From NCBI RefSeq assembly GCF_000374105.1, contig NZ_KB893650.1:1645145-1709144 (forward strand): DNA of 64,000 nt, written 5' to 3'. The notes beneath the pieces were generated by a model that was given only the letters and a program-made list of their open reading frames with translations, searched no databases and was not told the DNA's origin. Every line of letters starts with the position of its first letter. Position 1 is the stretch's first letter. The position numbers and the translations under genes were made by a program. Of the stretch, positions 21,364-32,557 are shown piece after piece. The DNA is from Kangiella aquimarina DSM 16071. Its GTDB lineage: Bacteria; Pseudomonadota; Gammaproteobacteria; Enterobacterales; Kangiellaceae.

Positions 21364-22752
21364 CTAAACCCTAATGACTTCACCATGCTTGGCGATAGTG
21401 ATTTCGCTATCTACATTTTGAGTCATGAAATCATGGAACTCCTGAATGGTAGTTTGAGCTCCATGCACAAGCACCAAACGAGGAGAGTTCTCAAACTTCT
21501 GATACCATTTCAGCAGATCTTTCTGACCCGCATGAGCTGAGAATCCACCGATGGTGTGCACTTTGGCGGCAACCTTAACCGTCTCACCCCATAATTTAAT
21601 ATATTTCGCACCTTCAACAATTCGATTACCCAGCGTTCCTTCAGGTTGGAATCCAGCAACAATCAGAGAGCATTGAGGACGCCAGATATTGTGCTTTAAA
21701 TGTTGCTTTATACGACCACCATTCATCATGCCGCTACCGGCAATGATAATAGCTCCTTGGTGGACACTATTCAGCTCAATAGACTGCTCAGTATCGGGTG
21801 TAAATTTTAAGTTGGGTAGCTTTTGATGCAGGGTCTCGCCTGACCAGAGATATTGGCTTTCTTTTTTATAAAGTTGCCAATACTTTCCATAAGTATTAGT
21901 TACTTTGATTGCCATTGGTGAGTCGAGGTAAATATCCCAGTCTCTCAGATGCCACTCGTTGTAATATTTAGCAAAATAGTAAAGCAGGACCTGAGTTCGA
22001 CCAACGGCAAAGGAGGGTATCAAAACGTTACCACCGTGCTGGCGGGCTTCATCAAGCGCAGTTTTTAATTCTACAATTGAAGTATCCCAACTTTGGTGGT
22101 TCCGGTTTCCGTAGGTTGACTCCATGATGACTAAATCAGCTTTGCCGTATATATTCGAGTCTTCCTGAATAGGCGAGCCTGGATTGCCAATATCACCACT
22201 TAGAATGATTCGTTTGGTATGGCTGCTCTCCTTGATCAAAAGTTCGACATGCGCAGAGCCCAAGATATGTCCTGCATTATGCAGAACCATAGTTATATCT
22301 TCTGTAATCTCGATGGGTTGCTTATAAGGGTGAAGGTTCAACAAAGACAGAACCGGCGGTACATCATCTTGCGTATAAAGTGGCTCAAGTAATTTAAGGC
22401 CTTTGCGACTACGTTTGGTATTGGCCCATTCCGCTTCTTTTTCCTGAAGGAATGCACTATCCATCAAAAGAATATCCAGCAAATCAGCATTGGCTTCATG
22501 GGTATGAATGGGACCTTGATAACCCTGGCCGACCAGTACTGGTAGTCGGCCACTATGATCAATGTGAGCATGCGTCAGGATAACAGCATCAAGCTCACGT
22601 AGTGAAAAAGGGAAGGGGGCACGATTACGTTCTTCTTTTTTAGGAGCGCCCTGAATAAGGCCGCAATCAACGATGATGTTACTGTGTTCAGTGGTAATCT
22701 GTATGCAGGAACCGGTGACTTCTTCCGCTGCACCATGGACTTTAATTTTCAT
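21364..22752 (-). CDS. Beta-CASP metallo-beta-lactamase RNA-processing exonuclease family protein
   Basis: This 462-residue protein has the metallo-beta-lactamase metal motif 'LTHAHIDHSGRLP' at about residues 59-71, 'HNAGHILGSAHVEL', 'SGDIGNPG', and the beta-CASP region with 'ESTYGNR', 'IPSFAVGRTQ' and the C-terminal 'TIGGFSAHAGQKDLL'. This architecture is that of CPSF73-like RNA nucleases (Ysh1/MBL-fold group). It is the last gene of a minus-strand run and its start overlaps the Na/Pi gene by 11 bases, so it is translationally coupled. RNA cleavage is expected from the family; the target is unknown. Confidence 0.88.
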   Translation of the reverse strand: MKIKVHGAAEEVTGSCIQITTEHSNIIVDCGLIQGAPKKEERNRAPFPFSLRELDAVILTHAHIDHSGRLPVLVGQGYQGPIHTHEANADLLDILLMDSAFLQEKEAEWANTKRSRKGLKLLEPLYTQDDVPPVLSLLNLHPYKQPIEITEDITMVLHNAGHILGSAHVELLIKESSHTKRIILSGDIGNPGSPIQEDSNIYGKADLVIMESTYGNRNHQSWDTSIVELKTALDEARQHGGNVLIPSFAVGRTQVLLYYFAKYYNEWHLRDWDIYLDSPMAIKVTNTYGKYWQLYKKESQYLWSGETLHQKLPNLKFTPDTEQSIELNSVHQGAIIIAGSGMMNGGRIKQHLKHNIWRPQCSLIVAGFQPEGTLGNRIVEGAKYIKLWGETVKVAAKVHTIGGFSAHAGQKDLLKWYQKFENSPRLVLVHGAQTTIQEFHDFMTQNVDSEITIAKHGEVIRV

Positions 22753-24337
22753 GGTTGGTTTCCTTTATGGTTTTATCAATTGATTCTAAAGCCTGCATAT
22801 AATATTTGCAGGATTTATACAGTGATTTGTTTAAATTCAACAATGTAGAAATAATATCGACAGAAATATTCTGGCTAATTTGTGAGGACAAGAGATTCGC
22901 TTCACTGGTTTTGAATTCGTGATAAAGCTTTTCGTACCAATTCTTAGTGAAGTCTTTGAAGCTTAAATCAACTTTTTGATCGAAAAGATGTCTGGAGTCT
23001 TCGTAGAATGCCTTTGATTGATTAAAAATAGGGAACATTGATTTGTCATGATACGACTCGGATAAATCGGGTTGCTCCAGATCCGCTAGAAGATCTTTCA
23101 GAAGTTTTGCCGAATAGATACCGTCCCTAATCGCTGCCAGCAGATTATAGAGTGCCTGCGTTTGTTCTTGGGTAAGTGGTCGTTCTGACAACTGACGAGA
23201 AAACTTAATAAATAAGCCTTCCATTTTTTTTAGCTCGAAATAGTGCTCAGGATTAACATAGTCAGTTGAGAGACATTTTTGATTGAACTGACTCACTTTA
23301 TTAATAAAAGAGACAGTTTCTGAACGAAAGCGCTCAATGGCAACCGGAGGCATATTAACCGGGATCAACGACAGTCTACTCTCAATAGGACTGAGGCTGT
23401 CTGAAAAACGCAATGATAGGAAGCTTACAAAGTAATTAAATAGTGTCAGGTAAACTAGAATTCCAATCAGATTGATGATGCTGTGGAAAGCAACAATGCT
23501 AATCAAAACATCTGTTATATTCAAAAACTCAAAAATAGTTTTGATGAAAGGCAATATTAAAAATACAGCAACAGTTGCATTGGTCAGATTAAAGACAACA
23601 TGGGCCAATGCCAGTTGTTTTTTGATTTTTGCACCTTTGATACTTCCGAGAATTGCTGTGCTCGTTGTTCCAATATCGGCACCAACTACAATCGCAAATG
23701 CATGTTCTACGCTGATTAAGCCTGCGTGAGCAGCGCTTAAATTCATCATCATGACGGCGGAACTGGATTGAACCAGTGTCGCTAGCAGAATACCAACAGC
23801 TACGAAGATAAATGGTGATTGGCTTTGAAGATTGGTGATATCAAAGTTATGACTTAACGCAATCGTCCCCGATTTAATTAAATCTAAACTGAAAAGAATC
23901 AGCCCAATACTGATGAACAATGTGTAAAAAGCAACTTGATTAGTATTCTTGGCAAAGAACACTCTCAATAGCGCTGCGAAGCCAATAAAATAAATGGCAA
24001 AGTCACCCAGGCTGAATTTAAAACCAAGATAGGTCACCAGCCAACCGGTAGCCGTCGTTCCTAGATTAGCACCGAATATAACACCAACCGCCTGCTTTAG
24101 ATTTAGCAGTTTAGAGCTGGCAAGTGCTAATACAATGATGGTGACCAGTGAGCTACTTTGCACAACGGCAGTACATACAGCGCCAGTTGCTACTGCAGAG
24201 ATTGAGGTTTTAGTCCAAGAGGTCAGGTAATAGTTAAGCTTGCCGGAAGCGAGTTTGGCCAGGCTCGATTCAATCAGGGACATTCCCCATAGGAAGATCC
24301 CTACACCTGCTAAAAAATTAAGCCATTCCAAGCTCAT
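22742..24337 (-). CDS. Na/Pi cotransporter family protein
   Basis: The 531-residue membrane protein belongs to the PNaS (NptA-like) sodium/phosphate symporter family. Two inverted repeats each contain the QSSS signature ('AVVQSSSLVTIIVLAL' near residue 60 and 'LVQSSSAVMMMNLSAAHAG' near residue 190), and 'GANLGTTATGW' and 'GADIGTTSTA' follow them. The C-terminal 200 residues are helical and cytoplasmic, like the PhoU-like domain found in this family. It may import phosphate for the phosphorolytic enzymes encoded beside it. Confidence 0.85.
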   Translation of the reverse strand: MSLEWLNFLAGVGIFLWGMSLIESSLAKLASGKLNYYLTSWTKTSISAVATGAVCTAVVQSSSLVTIIVLALASSKLLNLKQAVGVIFGANLGTTATGWLVTYLGFKFSLGDFAIYFIGFAALLRVFFAKNTNQVAFYTLFISIGLILFSLDLIKSGTIALSHNFDITNLQSQSPFIFVAVGILLATLVQSSSAVMMMNLSAAHAGLISVEHAFAIVVGADIGTTSTAILGSIKGAKIKKQLALAHVVFNLTNATVAVFLILPFIKTIFEFLNITDVLISIVAFHSIINLIGILVYLTLFNYFVSFLSLRFSDSLSPIESRLSLIPVNMPPVAIERFRSETVSFINKVSQFNQKCLSTDYVNPEHYFELKKMEGLFIKFSRQLSERPLTQEQTQALYNLLAAIRDGIYSAKLLKDLLADLEQPDLSESYHDKSMFPIFNQSKAFYEDSRHLFDQKVDLSFKDFTKNWYEKLYHEFKTSEANLLSSQISQNISVDIISTLLNLNKSLYKSCKYYMQALESIDKTIKETNHEN

Positions 24338-24350
24338 CTATGAGTTCTCA

Positions 24351-25235
24351 TCACTTAACCAATTTATAACTTTCAGCAATACTACCTGATACATCTATAG
24401 CATTACTGACGTGAGGAATAGTATTGCAGGTAACAATTTGGCTGATGTGGGATTGAGCAAGCATTCCATAAGCATTTTCGTTAAATATGGCATGGCTTGC
24501 TATACAGGTAATGTTATTCATACCTGCATCTTCTAGATGCTTGGTTATTTCAAGAATAGTGTGTCCCGTTGAAATGATGTCATCAACGAGCACAATTGTC
24601 TTATCTGTATGCTCTTCGATGCCTTTAATGGAAATCTCAACATCTTTATCGCCATGACGGACTTTATTGGCTACTAAAAAAGGAACTTGTATCTCACTGG
24701 CGATTGCTTCAACCCATTGCCGACTTTCGCTGTCAGGTCCAATAATAAGGGGGTTACTGATATGTGCTTTAATCCACTGCGCAATTGGACCGCTTGTGTG
24801 AGCCAGGTACGTTCGAATGGGATACACCTGATCCAAACTGAAAAAACGATGGAGATGAGGATCGACCGTAATCAAAGCATCAATGTTTTCAGAGAGTATT
24901 TCTGCAAAGTGTCGCGCAAGAATCGATTCCCCTTCATGGAAAACTGCATCCTGACGCATGTAAGGTAGATAGGGTGAAATGAGTACCACTTTTTCTGGCT
25001 CATGCTCTCTAATCATACGAAGTACAAATAATAAAGGGAGAATTTTGGCGTTTGGATGGGATAGGTCGGCTAATACAACGATTGTTTTCCCTTTGCAGGG
25101 ACTATGCAGCTGAATGTTAACTTCACCATCAGGAAAATAGTGCATTGATAATTTACCCATGGTTGCCCCGATTTTTTCGCAAACGGGCGCTGAAAGATTC
25201 AGGTTGTCCGACAAATCAAAAAGCAGGGTACTCAT
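24351..25235 (-). CDS. Ribose-phosphate pyrophosphokinase-family protein
   Basis: The 294-residue protein is homologous to PRPP synthetase. It has 'YFPDGEVNIQL', 'LISPYLPYMRQD' (catalytic Arg-Gln), 'TVDPHLHRFF' and the PRPP-binding loop 'IVLVDDIISTGHT' near residue 215. It is shorter than the housekeeping bacterial Prs (about 315) and lies in an operon with a phosphorylase, so it is probably a paralogue with a dedicated job. The start overlaps the phosphorylase stop by 4 bases (ATGA). Confidence 0.85.
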   Translation of the reverse strand: MSTLLFDLSDNLNLSAPVCEKIGATMGKLSMHYFPDGEVNIQLHSPCKGKTIVVLADLSHPNAKILPLLFVLRMIREHEPEKVVLISPYLPYMRQDAVFHEGESILARHFAEILSENIDALITVDPHLHRFFSLDQVYPIRTYLAHTSGPIAQWIKAHISNPLIIGPDSESRQWVEAIASEIQVPFLVANKVRHGDKDVEISIKGIEEHTDKTIVLVDDIISTGHTILEITKHLEDAGMNNITCIASHAIFNENAYGMLAQSHISQIVTCNTIPHVSNAIDVSGSIAESYKLVK

Positions 25236-26746
25236 AATCCTTCCTCAATAATAATCATTTCTTTGTGGGTGTTGTAGAAATCCAAGGCGTACTCCAGCTC
25301 TCCAGGCGCTTCTGAGTGAATAGTCAGCAGAGTAGAGCCCTCGGTAAGGTAATGACCTACTTTTGCCTCCATGTAGACACCTGATGCATGATCGGCCGGA
25401 GCACCGGCAAGCTTGGCTAAACGTGATAAGAGGCGATTATTGACTCGACGAATATAACCGCTTTTTTCTGCAGGAACAGCCATTTTGCAACAGGCAACAG
25501 GAGGGTACTTAAAGCCGCCTTGTGCTTCACAAATCTGCATAAAGGTTTTCCAGGCTTCTCCAGACTCAACCACTCTTAACGCCTCGTCCTTGCCATCACC
25601 ATTATTCACAACGCCAGCATGTTCTAATAGCTCGCCAGCAAGTAACACAGAACGCTCTCTTAAATCAGCCGGGGCTGAACTGGAGTTTTTTAATACCCCA
25701 ATAACATCCCAGGCCTCAAGCGCTGGACCAATGCCGAAGCCTACAGGCTGGGAGCCATCAGTTAATACCACTTTTACCTTAAGTCCCATTTTTTCACCAA
25801 CGGTCGTAAGTTGCTCGGCTAGAGCTTGAGCACTTTCTTCACTTCTGAGTTTAGCGGTAGGTCCCACAGGAATATCAATCAAGACATATTTCGAACCCGC
25901 GGCAATTTTTTTCGAAAGGATTGAAGCAATAAGCTGGCCTTCAAAATCAATATCCAATGCTTTTTCGACACTGATCAAGATATCGTCAGCGGGACTTAGA
26001 CTTACAGAACCTCCCCATGCAAGACAACCATGGTTTTTCTCGACGACTTCTTTTAACTGATTAAAAGATAAATCCACTTTGGTCATGGTTTCCATGACAT
26101 CTGCAGTACCGGCGGGTGAGGTTATGGCGCGAGAAGATGTTTTAGGAATGGTAAGCCCCTTTGACGCGAGAATTGACACGACTATTGGAGACGTTCTATT
26201 ACCTGGCAGCCCACCAACACAATGCTTATCGACGATTTTTTCTCCTGGCCACGTCAAAGTTTCACCGGCACTTACCATTCCTTGCGTTAAATACAGAATT
26301 TCATCCTGGGTCATATTGTTATTGGCACAGGCAGTAATAAATGCAGCCAGGTGTACATCCATATAATGCCCATCCACGATATCGCGCATGATTTCCTGTA
26401 ACTGATGTTTATTTAATTCATGGCCAAATGCTTTGGCGCGAATATAGGCAAGAGAATCAACTTGCGGAGCATGAGATAGTTTAATGCGCTGACCTTTTTT
26501 GAGTTTTAGGCGTTTCCAGGCAGTTTCCGAAAGTCCTGCAAAACCGGACTGAATTAGATCGCTATATACAATGAGCAGGGTGGCAATAATGGATTTGCTG
26601 TTTACTTCGACAAGCACACGAGACATGCTTTCAAAGCCTTCTGAGCGAGCTACTGGCGAATCAGAACGCAAAAAAATCAAAGGCTCATGGCGTGAGTTGA
26701 TCCCAAGCCTTATAGCAACTGGTAGTATTGATTCGGTTTTATCCAT
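25232..26746 (-). CDS. Thymidine phosphorylase-family protein with AMP-phosphorylase-type N-terminal extension
   Basis: The 504-residue enzyme has the nucleoside phosphorylase fold. Seen are 'DKHCVGGLPGNRTSPIVVSILA' (phosphate and substrate site), 'TSSRAITSPAGTADVMET' and 'GSKYVLIDIPVGPTAK'. About 85 extra residues at the N-terminus, compared with E. coli DeoA, give the layout of archaeal AMP phosphorylase and its bacterial relatives. AMP phosphorylase converts AMP and phosphate to adenine and ribose-1,5-bisphosphate. Which substrate this one uses cannot be decided from sequence alone. It overlaps the downstream PRPP synthetase gene. Confidence 0.85.
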   Translation of the reverse strand: MDKTESILPVAIRLGINSRHEPLIFLRSDSPVARSEGFESMSRVLVEVNSKSIIATLLIVYSDLIQSGFAGLSETAWKRLKLKKGQRIKLSHAPQVDSLAYIRAKAFGHELNKHQLQEIMRDIVDGHYMDVHLAAFITACANNNMTQDEILYLTQGMVSAGETLTWPGEKIVDKHCVGGLPGNRTSPIVVSILASKGLTIPKTSSRAITSPAGTADVMETMTKVDLSFNQLKEVVEKNHGCLAWGGSVSLSPADDILISVEKALDIDFEGQLIASILSKKIAAGSKYVLIDIPVGPTAKLRSEESAQALAEQLTTVGEKMGLKVKVVLTDGSQPVGFGIGPALEAWDVIGVLKNSSSAPADLRERSVLLAGELLEHAGVVNNGDGKDEALRVVESGEAWKTFMQICEAQGGFKYPPVACCKMAVPAEKSGYIRRVNNRLLSRLAKLAGAPADHASGVYMEAKVGHYLTEGSTLLTIHSEAPGELEYALDFYNTHKEMIIIEEGL

Positions 26747-26766
26747 CTGGATTATTACTCTGTTAT

Positions 26767-27513
26767 TTATATTTTAAACTCGGTAATAACCGGCTTATGA
26801 TCACTGGCTACTTTCGATAGTTTTTTTCGACACAGGAAAACATTTTCGAGTTTTAAACTACCTTGATAAAAGACTCGGTCCAATCCACCTCTAGGAGAAA
26901 ATGATGGGTAGGTCTTTAATGCTGATACTTTGTTCCTGTAGCGTCTGTCCGTCGCACATTTAAAGCCTGCACCTTCTGTCATCGGCTTTCTTAATAAAGA
27001 GCGCCAATCATTGAAGTCACCAATGACTATTTTATTAGCGTTATCATCAAGGTTTCTTATTTCAGCGGAATTTAATAGTTTTCTAATTTGCTTATCCCGC
27101 TCTTTAGCCGAGAGTCCCAGATGCAGATTAAACACATCGAGATGCACTGTTTTCGAAGGGCTTGAAGGAATGTCGATAGTTGTATGCTGACATCCTCGTC
27201 GTTTTTTATTATCAATTGTAAGATCAATATTTCGCTCGCGCACGATTGGAAAGCGACTGAGGGTTGCGTTGCCGTAATGACCTTTTTTGAGGCTGACATT
27301 TTTACCAAGGACGTAGTAGGGGAAATCAAGCGCTTCAGCAAGTTCTTGAGCAAGATTTAATTCTCGCGAGCGCGGCACTCCATCGTCAACTTCCTGGAGA
27401 GCTATGATATCTGCATCATAGCTTTCCAGAATCTCAACAATTCGTTCAGGACGAAACCGACGATCAACGCCAATTGCGCGATGAATGTTATAGGTGATGA
27501 CCTTAAGATTCAT
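26767..27513 (-). CDS. Endonuclease/exonuclease/phosphatase family protein
   Basis: The 248-residue soluble protein has the EEP fold motifs: 'VITYNIHRAIG' at the N-terminus, 'DIIALQEVDD' (catalytic Glu, near residue 41), 'HLGLSAKER', 'VIGDFNDW' near residue 165 and the C-terminal 'ASDHKPVITEF'. Members are metal-dependent nucleases or phosphodiesterases. No signal peptide is seen. It is 20 bases upstream of the phosphorylase gene in the same run. Confidence 0.88.
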   Translation of the reverse strand: MNLKVITYNIHRAIGVDRRFRPERIVEILESYDADIIALQEVDDGVPRSRELNLAQELAEALDFPYYVLGKNVSLKKGHYGNATLSRFPIVRERNIDLTIDNKKRRGCQHTTIDIPSSPSKTVHLDVFNLHLGLSAKERDKQIRKLLNSAEIRNLDDNANKIVIGDFNDWRSLLRKPMTEGAGFKCATDRRYRNKVSALKTYPSFSPRGGLDRVFYQGSLKLENVFLCRKKLSKVASDHKPVITEFKI

Positions 27514-27542
27514 CCTTTGATGTCCAACTCAGTAAGTAGGAA

Positions 27543-27833
27543 TTAATCTGTAAGGTCGCTGGAGCGAAATGCCTGTTTAATATCCTTGTATGCTTCCTGA
27601 AGTTGATGACCCAAAAGAACAAAGCCCTTACCAACATCCTCAGAAGCTTTATGAGCACCTTTACCAATAGTTTTGGCCTTTGCCTCAAAGCGCTCCCAGT
27701 CATGCTCGGTTTCTTGCCATTTATCGCGTAATTCGGCTTTCGCTAAATGAGCTTGTACTTTTAGCTCATCGCGCTGGGTTTTAAGCTTTTCGTATAGCTT
27801 TTTAGCTTCCGCTTTCAATTCTTCTTCATTCAT
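27543..27833 (-). CDS. Small coiled-coil protein of unknown function
   Basis: The 96-residue protein is highly charged and mostly helical, with a Lys/Glu-rich coiled coil at residues 2-50 and 'GKGAHKASEDVGKGFVLLGHQLQEAYKDI' near the C-terminus. No domain is recognised. AAGGAGT precedes the ATG. It is the first gene of the six-gene minus-strand run that includes the EEP nuclease, phosphorylase and PRPP synthetase homologues, so it may be an accessory protein of that group. Confidence 0.65.
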   Translation of the reverse strand: MNEEELKAEAKKLYEKLKTQRDELKVQAHLAKAELRDKWQETEHDWERFEAKAKTIGKGAHKASEDVGKGFVLLGHQLQEAYKDIKQAFRSSDLTD

Positions 27834-28198
27834 GATGCAAACTCCTTAATTCCATGTGTTTAAGAGTGTAAAGCACATGTATAGATATATCATATTAATA
27901 GTTTAACTGCTTGATTTTTGTCAAGGAATGAGGAGGAAAATGGACTGGTTTATGGAAAAGCATTCCAGTAGTAGGTTTATCTTGTTTGTATGTGGAAGAG
28001 GTAGCTCAAGCGTATTATCGGGAAAGGAAGGTGTCCGTACAACTTATGGAGAGCTAAAAGCAGATCCTGAACTTGATTCAGGATCTGCTCTTATTAAGTT
28101 AAATTAATAGCATTGAATAGATTTGCAGAGTTGCTTAAAAGAAAGGCCTAGTTAGTGGTTGTATAGGGGCAACTCACTAGCTACCCCTATAGTCATAA
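27834..28198. other. Intergenic region between the phosphorolysis run and the arsenic operon
   Basis: These 365 bases hold the promoter region of the minus-strand run and a strong hairpin at 28059-28089. A 55-codon plus-strand frame (27940-28107), preceded by AGGAGG, overlaps the hairpin; its reality is doubtful. Nothing else is seen. Confidence 0.5.
28059..28089. terminator. Hairpin terminator downstream of acr3
   Basis: A 13-bp perfect stem, AGCAGATCCTGAA / TTCAGGATCTGCT, with a 5-base loop lies about 110 bases beyond the acr3 stop. It probably ends the arsenic operon, although no long T-run flanks it. Confidence 0.55.
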
Positions 28199-29218
28199 TT
28201 ATCCCTTAAACCAATGCCGAGTTCGATTGGCAAAAGCAACAAGTGACAACATCACCGGGACTTCAACCAGAACGCCGACAACAGTGGCTAGTGCGGCACC
28301 TGAGTGCAGTCCAAACAATGAAATAGCGACCGCTACAGCAAGCTCGAAGAAATTCGAGGTGCCGATCATACAGGCTGGCGCTGCAACATTATGAGGAAGC
28401 CTCATAAATTTAGCAGCAGCATAGGCTATGATGAAAATACCATAGGTCTGAATTAACAATGGAATGGCTATCAGGCCAATATCCAGTGGCTTAGCAAGAA
28501 TTTTTTCGGCCTGAAAAGCGAATAGTAAAATGATTGTCAGAAGCAGCCCTAAAATCGACCAGGGTTTCGATTTGACCAGAAACATATGCAATCTATGATG
28601 GTCGTCTTTTTTATCTAATGCATTGCGCGTTATTGCACCAGCAATCAGCGGTAATAGCACATAAAGGACTACCGACAAAAGTAATGTTTCCCACGGCACA
28701 GCGATATCAGTTACTCCCAATAAAAATGCAGCTAGAGGGGCAAAGGCAAAAACCATGATGACATCATTAATCGAGACCTGAACCAGGGTATAGTTGGCAT
28801 CGCCTTTGGTTAGATGACTCCATACGAACACCATCGCGGTACAAGGTGCAACGCCAAGTAAAATCATACCTGCGATGTATTCATTAGCCGTTTGAGGGTC
28901 GACCATGTCAGCGAAAAAATATTTGAAGAAGAGTACACCAAGTGCTGCCATGGTGAAGGGTTTGATTAACCAGTTAACCACTAACGTTAAAATCAAACCT
29001 TTAGGCTTCTTACCCACATCCTTGATCGACTTGAAATCAACCTGAACCATCATTGGGAATATCATCAGCCAGATGAGTACTGCAACTAGCAGGTTCACGT
29101 GGGCATACTCTAACTTAGCGATATAATTAAAGAGCTCTGGCAAAACGTTGCCAAGAACAACGCCAACGACTATACATAAGGCAACCCATAGTGATAAAAA
29201 TCGTTCAAAAACACCCAT
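28199..29218 (-). CDS. acr3: ACR3 family arsenite efflux transporter
   Basis: This 339-residue inner-membrane carrier has about ten hydrophobic helices and the ACR3 signature '[25 protein letters not shown]', with the conserved cysteine near residue 125, plus '[10 protein letters not shown]' at the C-terminus. It exports arsenite. Its start touches the arsC stop, so the two are coupled, and arsR lies upstream: the operon is arsR-arsC-acr3. Confidence 0.93.
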
Positions 29219-29706
29219 TAAAATAACTCCCCAAGTTGTTGCAGTTCAGTTTTAAATTGGTCAGCATCCATCTCTTCGAAATCTTTCTCCAGAAGCGTTT
29301 TTATGCGCTTTTCTATGACGTTAATGACATGTGCAAACGCCTCAGCTTCCTGCTCTTCAGAATCATGCTCTCCAGAGCTATGACCTTTAGAAGGATCCGG
29401 CAAACCCCAGTGTACTTTTAGGGTATTTCCCATCCACACAGGACATGCTTCACCTGCAGCACTATCACACACCGTTATCACCACGTCTGGATCAAAATTA
29501 CTCAGCTCATCCCAGCTTTGGCTGGTTAAGCCTTCGGTACTGTAGCCATGCTTGCTAAGATATTTCAGGGTAAGAGGGTGAACCACGCCGCGCGGAGCGC
29601 TGCCCGCACTGGCTGTCTCAAGGCGACCTTTGCCCAATGTTCGTGCAATCACTTCACTAAGTATGCTGCGGCAAGCATTATGAGTACAAATAAACAGTAT
29701 TTTCAT
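29218..29706 (-). CDS. arsC: Arsenate reductase (LMW-phosphatase fold)
   Basis: The 162-residue protein has the P-loop '[13 protein letters not shown]' (CX5R, Cys near residue 8) and the second redox region '[15 protein letters not shown]' near residues 80-95. This places it with the thioredoxin-coupled or phosphatase-fold arsenate reductases, which reduce arsenate to arsenite for export by Acr3. The C-terminal extension is acidic (Glu/Asp/His rich). Middle gene of the ars operon. Confidence 0.9.
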
Positions 29707-29768
29707 GTTCTAACTCGTTAATAAATAGAATTGAAATGGTTCGCTAACCATCTGTAAATATATGCAAT

Positions 29769-30110
29769 TTAGCAACATAGCGATCGTTCTGGTCGGTTTG
29801 CCATGTTTTTCAGGCGCTTCAGGTTACTTGCTATAAATTGCTGATTACTTTGTGCAGTTTCAGCTAACACTTTTGTAGTCCAATTGGGTAGCTCTGGGTT
29901 TAAGCGATAGTAGACCCACTTACCATCACGCCTATCGAGCAGCAGTCCACATTGGCGTAACTGCGCTAAATGGCGTGATACCTTTGGCTGACTCTCGTCT
30001 AAAGCTTCCATAAGCTCACAGACACAGAGCTCAGATACTTGTTGTATTAACAGCAGGCTTCGCAATCGAGTCTCATCGGCCAGACATTTAAAAAATTCAG
30101 TCGGTTCCAT
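29769..30110 (-). CDS. arsR: ArsR-family metalloregulator
   Basis: The 113-residue winged-helix repressor has the arsenic-sensing motif 'SELCVCELMEAL' at about residues 26-37 (vicinal Cys pair), then the recognition helix 'SQPKVSRHLAQLRQCGLL'. A C-terminal CC pair is also present. It should release its operator on binding arsenite. The candidate operator lies in the divergent region towards copA. Confidence 0.93.
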   Translation of the reverse strand: MEPTEFFKCLADETRLRSLLLIQQVSELCVCELMEALDESQPKVSRHLAQLRQCGLLLDRRDGKWVYYRLNPELPNWTTKVLAETAQSNQQFIASNLKRLKNMANRPERSLCC

Positions 30111-30128
30111 ATAGTTGTCTCAACAAAC

Positions 30129-30163
30129 ATATATGGATGGCAATATATATGAAAAATCATATG
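30129..30163. promoter_or_regulatory. Candidate ArsR operator
   Basis: The region just upstream of arsR contains CATATAT and ATATATG in inverted orientation, overlapping a perfect ATATGA-AAAA-TCATAT palindrome (30147-30162). ArsR sites are typically AT-rich dyads of this kind next to the arsR promoter. Confidence 0.5.
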
Positions 30164-30304
30164 TGTCAATTATCATTCAAAACTATGGCTTAAGCTAATT
30201 CACTAAACCCCAAAATCTTATGGTTATTATTTTAAATAACTAGTGATACAGTAATAAGTATCAACACAGTAATAGCATTACCGCAAAAGTTAAGGTTTAG
30301 CTGC

Positions 30305-32557
30305 ATGAGTGATCATTCTTCCCATTCAAAAACCGTAGAGCTCAATATCGAAGGAGCAGGCTGCGCCAGTTGTGTCGGTAAAATTGAAGGTGCTTTAAAA
30401 GGCGTTTCCGGTGTTGAAAGTGCCGAGATGAACTTTGCAGACCGCACTGTCACCGTTAAAGGTACTGCCAATACCGACATCATGATTGAAGCCGTTGAGA
30501 ATGCGGGCTATCAGGCATCGTTAATTGAAAACGAATCAGAAAGTGAAGCCCTGGAAGAAAAAGAACAGGCCAATCAAGCTTACTACAAACGTCTCATGAC
30601 CAAGATGTGGATTGCGCTTGGGGTGGGGGTGCCTTTAATGGCTTATGGTTTATTAGGCGGAGCCATGACCGTAACCACCACAAATGAACGCATTGCCTGG
30701 TTAATTGTCGGCCTTGTTACACTGGCCATCATGTATTTCTCAGGAAAACACTTTTTCACAGGCGCGTGGAAGTCCTTTAAAAATCACTCTGCAAACATGG
30801 ACACCCTGATCGCTCTGGGTACTGGTACGGCCTGGGTCTATTCGATGGTTGTGGTGTTTTTCCCCAACTCGTTACCCGAAATGGCTCGCCATGTTTATTT
30901 CGAGGCGACAGCCATGATTATTGGTCTTATTAATTTGGGTTTGGCATTAGAAGTCAGAGCTCGTGGCAGGACCTCAGAAGCCATTAAAAGGCTTATTGGT
31001 TTACAGGCTAAAACTGCACGAGTGATTCGTGACGGTGATGAGAAAGACATTCCCATTGAGGATGTGCAAAAAGATGACCTGGTACGTGTTCGTCCCGGCG
31101 AAAAGATACCTGTTGATGGGGTTGTTACCGAAGGCAACTCTACGCTGGATGAGTCAATGTTAACTGGCGAACCGATGCCAGTTGAAAAAGGCGAGGGCGA
31201 CGAAGTTTCTGCCGGCACGATTAATAAAAGCGGCAGTATCATTTTCAAAGCAACGCGCGTCGGAAAAGATACGGCTTTAGCGCAAATCATTAAAATGGTT
31301 AAGCAAGCGCAAAATTCCAAGCCACCCATTGGCAGGTTAGCGGACGTTATCGCCGCGTACTTTGTTCCAACGGTGATGATTATTGCGGTTATTAGCGCGC
31401 TGATTTGGCTGAATTTTGGAGCACAGGATGCCATTGCCTTTGCCGTGGTTTCTGCGACCACCGTTCTGATCATTGCCTGTCCTTGTGCTCTGGGTTTAGC
31501 AACGCCCATGTCGGTGATGGTTGGTGTGGGCAAAGCAGCTGAAGCAGGCGTACTGATCCGCAACGGTGAGTCGTTGCAGACTGCCTCAAAAATTACTGCC
31601 ATGGTGCTTGATAAAACCGGTACCATTACCGAAGGCTCGCCTAAAGTTACCGATATTGTTGGCTTTAACGATGTCTCTCAAAATGCTGCGTTACAACTTG
31701 CCGCGAGTCTCGAAACAGGCTCGGAACATCCTCTTGCTCAAGCCATTGTTGAATCGGCGAAAGAAAAAGACATTGAGCTGAAAAAGAGTTCAGACTTTAA
31801 CTCTATTGCCGGGCATGGTGTCGAAGGAAATGTCGATGGGAAGCATCTATATTTCGGTAATGAAAAGCTGATGCGCGACCAAGGGATTGATATTGATCAT
31901 GCTGTTGATAGAGCTCAGGAACTTGCTGGTGAGGCGAAAACACCGATGTATTTCGCAATAGATAAAAAACTCGCTGCGATTATTGCCGTAGCTGATCCGA
32001 TCAAAGAAGACTCCATCGAAGCCATTAAGCGATTACAGAAAGCCAATATTCGTGTGGTCATGTTAACCGGTGATAATAAAGCCACCGCTAAAGCAGTTGC
32101 CAGTAAAGTGGGTATTGATGAATTCTTTGCTGAAGTGTTACCCGAGGATAAAGTTAACAAAGTTAAAGAGCTGCAAAAGGAAGGTGAGCTTGTAGGTATG
32201 GCCGGTGATGGTATCAATGATGCACCAGCGCTGGCGCAGGCCGATGTTGGCTTTGCCATTGGTACTGGAACTGACGTTGCTATTGAAAGTGCTGATATAA
32301 CCTTGATGCGCGGTTCACTACATGGTCTTGCAGATGCAGTGGCAACCAGTAAAGCGACATTGCGAAACATCAAACAGAACCTTTTTGGAGCCTTTATTTA
32401 CAATGTTGCGGGCATACCTATTGCCGCAGGTTTGTTGTATCCGTTCTTCGGTATTTTATTGAGCCCTGTCATAGCAGGCGCAGCGATGGCATTCTCATCA
32501 GTGACTGTGGTGACTAATGCCAACCGCCTACGTTTTTTCAAACCTAAAGAGCATTAA
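30305..32557 (+). CDS. copA: Copper-exporting P1B-type ATPase
   Basis: The 750-residue inner-membrane pump has one N-terminal heavy-metal domain with the motif GAGCASC (residues 17-23; unusual, normally GMTCxxC), eight expected membrane helices, the CPC metal site near residue 391 ([10 protein letters not shown]), the phosphorylated Asp in DKTGT near 435, the SEHP motif and GDGINDAPA near 632. These define a Cu(I)/Ag(I) exporter of the P1B-1 group. A cupredoxin gene follows 17 bases downstream. Confidence 0.93.

Follow-up and report, generated by a model that had tools for sequence, protein, structure and literature searches.

A compact set of six genes in a 64,000-nucleotide stretch of the 2.68 Mb genome of Kangiella aquimarina DSM 16071 (contig NZ_KB893650.1, positions 1,645,145 to 1,709,144; the whole stretch is called the window here) probably serves, as far as its sequence can tell, to split nucleotides into bases and sugar phosphates at low oxygen. 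At its core lie a gene for a phosphorylase resembling archaeal enzymes that act on nucleoside 5'-monophosphates (NMPs) and, next to it, a gene for an extra homologue of Prs, the synthetase of phosphoribosyl diphosphate (PRPP). In many proteobacteria these two genes are neighbours, far more often than chance would give. The module is probably a bacterial form of NMP phosphorolysis with a conserved core, not a separate type of system.

The six open reading frames lie at 21364-27833 of the window, all on the minus strand, and are separated in reading order by 29, 20, -4 (an ATGA overlap), 13 and -11 bases. These coordinates bear out the compact same-strand arrangement described in a first-pass annotation made from the letters alone, and Pfam matches uphold the families that it named for five of the products (listed in reading order):

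27543..27833, minus strand: charged protein of 96 amino acids, first gene, a putative coiled-coil protein according to the first-pass annotation; no family found in Pfam and NCBIfam at E 0.001
26767..27513, minus strand: endonuclease/exonuclease/phosphatase (EEP) family protein, 248 amino acids (PF03372, 3.8e-21); no solved relative found at E 0.001
25232..26746, minus strand: NMP-phosphorylase-like enzyme, 504 amino acids (PF02885/PF00591), annotated as thymidine phosphorylase type (TIGR02645/NF003338)
24351..25235, minus strand: extra Prs-type enzyme, proposed R15P-handling partner (R15P, ribose-1,5-bisphosphate), 294 amino acids (PF13793/PF00156; NF005537/PRK07199)
22742..24337, minus strand: Na+/Pi cotransporter family protein, 531 amino acids (PF02690, 8.7e-46; NF037997, 135.9 bits, cut-off 50)
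21364..22752, minus strand: homologue of beta-CASP ribonucleases with metallo-beta-lactamase fold, 462 amino acids (PF10996, PF07521, PF00753)

Results

The phosphorylase and the Prs homologue form a conserved pair

Conservation was surveyed in 369 genomes of the class, using TIGR02645 at E 1e-60 for the phosphorylase and NF005537 for the Prs homologue. Each model matched 80 genomes, and 72 genomes held both genes, eight the phosphorylase only and eight the Prs homologue only (Fisher p 1e-57, a value not corrected for kinship). Of 84 phosphorylase places, 74 have the Prs gene as a same-strand downstream neighbour no more than 300 bases away. A sample of 388 genomes from the phylum gave 40 with both genes, four with the phosphorylase only and one with Prs only; it contained 48 phosphorylase places, of which 20 regions were examined. 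The distance matrices of the two proteins agree as well: those of 71 pairs, namely those of the 83 rows of the phosphorylase tree with a same-strand Prs of 260-340 residues, correlate with a Mantel r of 0.907, a value reached in 0 of 2000 permutations. Eight of the 16 single-gene genomes in the class sample can be explained. Three phosphorylase matches (G042, G319 and G412; 207-217 bits) fall below the cut-off and resemble classical enzymes, a contig edge lies on the Prs side in G183 and G118 and on the phosphorylase side in G350 and G413, and G245 has a Prs fragment; the other eight are not so explained.

A FastTree phylogeny of the phosphorylase (83 rows including the window, 470-560 residues, midpoint root) splits into two deep groups. 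A same-strand beta-CASP gene lies within 8.5 kb in 22 of the 29 rows of the window's clade, and so it does in 22 of the 60 rows whose flanks extend 3 kb or more in each direction. The remaining genes are much more local. Same-strand relatives beside the pair were counted in 103 loci (L018 and the G011 place counted once): relatives of the Na/Pi importer and of the 96-residue protein occur in five other loci, all of the window's genus, and EEP relatives only in L018, L051 and L052, again all of the genus, while L140 has one distant Na/Pi relative (25%) on the opposite strand. These three genes look like genus-level additions. The gene-order conservation expected in the first-pass annotation thus holds for the pair and, in the window's clade, for the beta-CASP gene; the six genes are not conserved as a whole.

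Within the genus, the phosphorylase was found at 1e-50 in at least five of 19 other genomes, a lower bound because in the draft G003 the operon is represented by its beta-CASP end, without a phosphorylase. With so few members carrying it, the module is accessory within the genus. We also considered an insertion that would have left an empty site in relatives. The methyltransferase gene neighbouring the operon is present in four of 23 genomes including that of K. aquimarina, and the other three (loci L200-L202) all align on through the beta-CASP gene too; with no empty site among them, this idea was rejected.

Two other genes were seen beside the pair. A DUF1614 membrane protein, which may be a transporter serving the pathway, is encoded after Prs in 23 loci; L074 and L117 (L117:8334-8996), both from the second clade, are examples. 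In two relatives of the genus a P-type ATPase gene stands between Prs and the Na/Pi importer (L053:4667-7318, 883 residues; L054:9941-12595, 884 residues); the L053 protein is nearest to Ca-type models and scores below their cut-offs.

The phosphorylase resembles an archaeal NMP phosphorylase

In NCBIfam the phosphorylase is over the cut-offs of NF003338 (655.5 bits versus 434) and TIGR02645 (590.2 versus 434.6), and far under those of thymidine phosphorylase TIGR02643 (153.9 versus 570.7) and pyrimidine phosphorylase (216.1 versus 409). Its closest solved relative is the AMP phosphorylase of Thermococcus kodakarensis (PDB 4ga4-4ga6; residues 44-489, E 1.8e-103), which the relevant sections of two papers describe as an NMP phosphorylase earlier misnamed thymidine phosphorylase (PMC8376864, PMC9700705). 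Residues were compared in an alignment of 82 rows of 480-560 residues, taken from the cluster found in 91 loci, with the window row kept apart. The motif SSRAITS, W244-G-G and the pair D254-D255 match the archaeal enzyme, and these columns are kept in 82 of 82 rows, whereas Escherichia coli thymidine phosphorylase (TP) reads SGRGLGH at the SSRAITS position. The window enzyme also has an N-terminal part that is present in the T. kodakarensis enzyme and absent from E. coli TP, and the residue that we take to be the pyrimidine-binding Arg171 of E. coli TP aligns to a gap. These scores and signature residues argue against identity with thymidine phosphorylase (DeoA), and we infer from the same residues that the enzyme would act on NMPs.

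The likeness to the archaeal enzyme has limits. The bacterial rows have a lysine at position 174, corresponding to K84 of TP, unlike the archaeal enzyme; residue 176, a Ser in E. coli TP as in the archaeal enzyme, is Cys in 80 of 82 rows; and R184 takes the place of T. kodakarensis K139. Given K174 together with C176, the bacterial rows form a distinct branch, which differs from the archaeal enzyme also in its Prs-homologue neighbour.

An extra Prs homologue with an altered loop

The Prs homologue is over the NF005537/PRK07199 cut-off (360.1 versus 322; NCBIfam), and the genome encodes, apart from its two NF005537 copies, a canonical Prs of 410.6 bits. The structure model of the window's homologue (pLDDT 96.3) superimposes on the PRPP synthetase of Thermoplasma volcanium with ADP-Mg (3mbi) with a Z of 34.1 and a root mean square deviation of 1.9 over 285 aligned residues. 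A structure alignment of 58 rows was also used, namely 64 relatives of 280-320 residues thinned at 75% identity to 57, plus the window. The contacts reported for E. coli Prs in the portion of PMC9232217 used here are F35, D37, R99 and H131 for the nucleotide and D170, D220, D221, T225 and T228 for ribose-5-phosphate (R5P). In an alignment of 81 rows of 270-330 residues (drawn from the cluster present in 91 loci and not counting the window row), the equivalents of F35, D37, the RQD motif, H131, D170, K194, R196, D220 and D221 are kept in 81 of 81 rows and T228 in 80, position T225 is Thr in 58 and Ser in 23, and the R99 equivalent varies. Ordinary PRPP synthesis would thus still be compatible with these residues.

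The window protein shares fold, nucleotide site and R5P site with true PRPP synthetases, yet besides the loss of R99 and a length of 294 residues it shows changes that are invariant among its relatives: G172 is replaced by Glu, A132-E133-Q134 by Leu-His-Arg, and a Trp follows the loop. The PDxGG/A pattern of the diphosphate loop is not matched; the homologues have PDxE(S/A), with Glu in 81 of 81 rows, whereas the loop Gly is kept in Methanocaldococcus jannaschii and in the genome's own canonical Prs (PDVGG). This loop presumably binds the diphosphate.

Two known consumers of ribose-1,5-bisphosphate are scarce

In archaea, R15P metabolism by NMP phosphorylases runs with an isomerase and Rubisco, according to the parts of PMC9700705 that treat it, and NMP phosphorolysis to R15P would be the entry step shared by this pentose bisphosphate pathway, or NMP shunt, and the module described here. 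However, an R15P isomerase exceeds the cut-off in none of the 72 genomes that carry the pair, and the K. aquimarina genome has no match at 1e-10, so the archaeal isomerase route was rejected. Weaker matches in 49 of the 72, reaching 211 bits against a cut-off of 314.1, we take to be related isomerases such as methylthioribose-1-phosphate isomerase. The second candidate, the ribose-1,5-bisphosphate phosphokinase PhnN, turns R15P and ATP into PRPP and ADP, one of the reactions proposed here for the Prs partner, with a fold unrelated to that of Prs. It is over the cut-off in only four of the 72 genomes (G093 being just under, 150.5 versus 156) and was rejected as a general consumer; other matches score 42-72 bits, the sole one in the K. 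aquimarina genome 42.2, and are presumably guanylate kinases. With the isomerase over its cut-off in none of the 72 genomes and PhnN in four, the Prs homologue is the best candidate and, provided that the phosphorylase makes R15P, would be its natural consumer. The conserved unit, the likeness to NMP phosphorylases and this scarcity together make a hand-over of R15P between the two enzymes a sensible reading.

A conserved FNR-type box precedes the operon

Three elements were located upstream of the first gene:

27911..27924, minus strand: FNR/FixK-type box TTGACAAAAATCAA, its centre some 84 bases ahead of the first start codon
27884..27889, minus strand: TATATC, a candidate -10 element at a distance of 28.5 bases to the centre of the box, proposed from sequence reading and alignment
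28055..28093, minus strand: strong hairpin, a possible terminator, between arsenic genes and the operon (-27.3 kcal/mol for a 71-nucleotide stretch, z -7.0); absent from the output of a simple terminator scan

The box is the sole exact match to TTGAYNNNNRTCAA in the window, and a single match is unremarkable by itself (chance expectation: mean 0.40, at least one in 37 of 100 shuffles). It counts as evidence because of its position and conservation: it precedes the first gene in six of six loci where the genus carries this cluster, and its half-sites TTGA and ATCAA are invariant in L053 and L054 despite diverged flanks. In the whole genome, 46 places match the FNR-type pattern and 13 the reversed one. 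The genome also encodes an FNR protein with the CX2CX5C motif (NF008365, 351 bits, cut-off 228), whose gene follows hemN. A spacing of 28.5 bases between box centre and -10 element is that of FNR class II promoters. Over 92 loci, the density of boxes is 0.118 per kb within 600 bases before the phosphorylase and 0.024 per kb elsewhere; beyond the genus, few loci have the box. The conserved box, together with the FNR protein, suggests that FNR would turn the operon on as oxygen falls.

Published work on Bradyrhizobium diazoefficiens, cited here from its expression and promoter data, points the same way. The genes bll3117 (thymidine phosphorylase family), bll3116 (ribose-phosphate pyrophosphokinase) and bll3115 (metallo-beta-lactamase fold) go up at 0.5% O2, with protein log2 values of 2.1, 4.4 and 2.9 and transcript fold changes of 5.1, 7.7 and 15.4, as does the phosphoketolase bll2518 (protein log2 4.3, transcript fold 8.2; PMC6515984). 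The predicted operon bll3117-bll3116-bll3115 has a FixK2-type motif at -74, and deletion of fixK2 changes bll3117 by -6.6 and bll3115 by -30.6 fold, and bll2518-bll2517 (phosphoketolase, acetate/propionate kinase) by -10.0 and -10.2 (PMC9104804). The three gene names and their order are those of the window, although the predicted operon has no Na/Pi, EEP or 96-residue gene. Among the genomes sampled from the phylum, the pair occurs in four large ones belonging to a single genus, and three of these (L159-L161) show the order phosphorylase, Prs, beta-CASP.

A second cluster with phosphoketolase and acetate kinase genes

The same genome carries a second cluster (L050, G000:C1:1745000-1764000) with a paralogous phosphorylase, Prs and beta-CASP protein, followed on the same strand by genes for a 153-residue protein, a DUF5676 protein, acetate kinase, phosphoketolase and an amino-acid permease. 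Its neighbours encode a MerR-family regulator, a CopZ-like protein, a heavy-metal ATPase, a P-II-like protein and an AcrB-type pump. Phosphoketolase genes lie near the pair in at least eight of the 103 loci, all on the same strand, and in at least one of 20 further loci, lower bounds because many of the contigs examined are short. An FNR-type box at L050:15507 adjoins the MerR-family gene and for that reason was not counted as FNR evidence; the related clusters L061 and L068 have no exact FNR-type box. The box before the first operon, the second cluster with its phosphoketolase and acetate kinase, and the published low-oxygen regulation all go beyond the first-pass annotation.

The beta-CASP protein

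The last gene of the operon encodes a protein with lactamase, beta-CASP and RMMBL domains, in which the HxHxDH motif reads THAHIDHSG. Its closest solved relative, RNase TTHA0252 (PDB 2dkf; E 2.9e-80), has the same domain set and is similar over nearly the whole length. The best NCBIfam match is Cas14, a beta-CASP protein of type VII CRISPR, far under the cut-off (350 versus 800), and a defence system was rejected, none of the six operon proteins having a PADLOC match at 1e-5. In Burkholderia cenocepacia, M0300, a 50.96 kDa member of the metallo-beta-lactamase superfamily that is placed in the translation class, is listed as up during infection in the relevant part of a paper that concerns a low-oxygen-activated locus (PMC6127331); M0300 is possibly of the same beta-CASP kind. 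As a further observation on the window, ARAGORN reported zero tRNA genes in its 64 kb.

Discussion

On balance, we favour a nucleotide-phosphorolysis module of low oxygen, in which ribose is salvaged for energy. The beta-CASP enzyme would, to judge by its family, cut RNA, and the phosphorylase, to judge by its signature residues, would split NMPs with phosphate into base and R15P. The Prs-type partner would then convert R15P into PRPP or R5P, a step suggested by the strong gene pairing, the scarcity of known R15P consumers and the altered diphosphate-binding loop. FNR would switch on these genes under falling oxygen, and pentose phosphate would pass through phosphoketolase and acetate kinase to yield ATP, in the second cluster and, via co-regulation, in Bradyrhizobium. 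The Na/Pi importer would supply phosphate, and the EEP and 96-residue proteins would be local additions. The first-pass annotation had proposed a phosphorolysis module of all six genes: the pair, the NMP-type phosphorylase and the scarce R15P consumers agree with it, and the conservation of the six together does not.

Three outcomes can be considered for the Prs step: PRPP formed with ADP, as by PhnN; R5P formed with ADP from AMP; or none, the protein being an ordinary Prs. The second is slightly favoured because the phosphoketolase and acetate kinase of the second cluster need a pentose-5-phosphate. In its specific form, in which the Prs homologue moves one phosphate and not two (R15P + AMP -> R5P + ADP), we regard it as a rather doubtful proposal. 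The reaction would be the beta-phosphate chemistry of canonical Prs with ADP replacing ATP, run in reverse; Glu170, part of the diphosphate loop, would leave no place for a second phosphate, and the invariant His129-Arg130 would hold the single one. Together with the phosphorylase, the net result would be a dismutation of AMP (2 AMP + Pi -> adenine + R5P + ADP), which would save the energy of the glycosidic bond when low oxygen coincides with high AMP, and feed phosphoketolase and acetate kinase. By textbook free-energy values the step from R15P and AMP would be slightly unfavourable, except where AMP is abundant and R5P is continually removed.

Several observations weigh against the proposed module. 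The phosphorylase is under the cut-off of the AMP phosphorylase model TIGR03327 (491.8 versus 535), and it has K174 and C176 where the T. kodakarensis enzyme has V129 and S131. All E. coli contacts for R5P and nucleotide given in the cited portion of PMC9232217, except R99, are retained in the Prs homologue. The pairing has apparent true exceptions, two genomes without Prs (G205 and G275) and six without the phosphorylase (G204, G291, G333, G361, G364 and G393), and loci L055 and L109 have beta-CASP and phosphorylase genes without Prs. The second deep clade is mostly without beta-CASP (present in four of 54 rows), phosphoketolase is near in just eight of 103 loci, and a box within 600 bases before the phosphorylase is found in just seven of 92. 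The link to Bradyrhizobium is one of annotation names and gene order alone; bll3117, bll3116 and bll3115 come from a lenient list (log2 at least 1) and, in the part of PMC6515984 that covers them, are neither marked as direct FixK2 or NifA targets nor listed as changed in soybean bacteroids.

The six genes might not be one pathway at all. A pair that happens to sit in a metal-resistance region, with the Pi importer, EEP and 96-residue genes serving arsenate or copper stress, is a possible reading, though one to which we give clearly less credit. Genes of arsR, arsC and acr3 type lie directly upstream on the same strand (window 28199-32557) and a heavy-metal ATPase gene adjoins them on the other strand; the MerR-family regulator, CopZ-like protein, heavy-metal ATPase and AcrB-type pump beside the second cluster fit as well, as does the P-type ATPase gene that separates Prs from the importer in L053 and L054. 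Yet the strong hairpin and the separate conserved box part the arsenic genes from the operon, and the genes inside the operon overlap.

It is unlikely, in our view, that the pair is an ordinary salvage unit, in which a thymidine-type nucleoside phosphorylase is joined by an extra but ordinary PRPP synthetase making PRPP for base salvage. The database family names point to such a unit, and the Prs homologue would fit it with its fold, that of a PRPP synthetase (Z 34.1 to 3mbi), and with the site residues that 81 of 81 rows retain. The phosphorylase, however, stays far under the thymidine and pyrimidine phosphorylase cut-offs, has an invariant NMP-phosphorylase signature and presents a gap at what we take to be the pyrimidine-binding Arg171 of TP, while the genome already has a canonical Prs and the change of G172 to Glu is found in 81 of 81 Prs rows. 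More improbable still is the anabolic direction, in which the phosphorylase would join bases and R15P into NMPs with R15P or PRPP supplied by the Prs homologue for nucleotide rescue after stress: phosphorolysis is reversible, and T. kodakarensis turns nucleosides into NMPs via ribose-1-phosphate and R15P (PMC9700705, in the section concerned), but the nuclease neighbour and, at some loci, phosphoketolase and acetate kinase suggest breakdown.

In the open-licence literature of PubMed Central (PMC), we found no paper that treats the phosphorylase-Prs gene pair as a system. The pair is present in about one-fifth of the class sample (72 of 369 genomes), and if the proposed low-oxygen phosphorolysis module is real, a widespread bacterial route through R15P would have been hidden under the name of thymidine phosphorylase. 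It would let cells short of oxygen gain ATP from RNA and give a role to the FixK2-dependent operon of Bradyrhizobium, which is listed, with no pathway considered, in the cited parts of both papers. Given the changed loop of the Prs-type partner, a new phosphotransfer reaction could be tested directly with just the two proteins in purified form.

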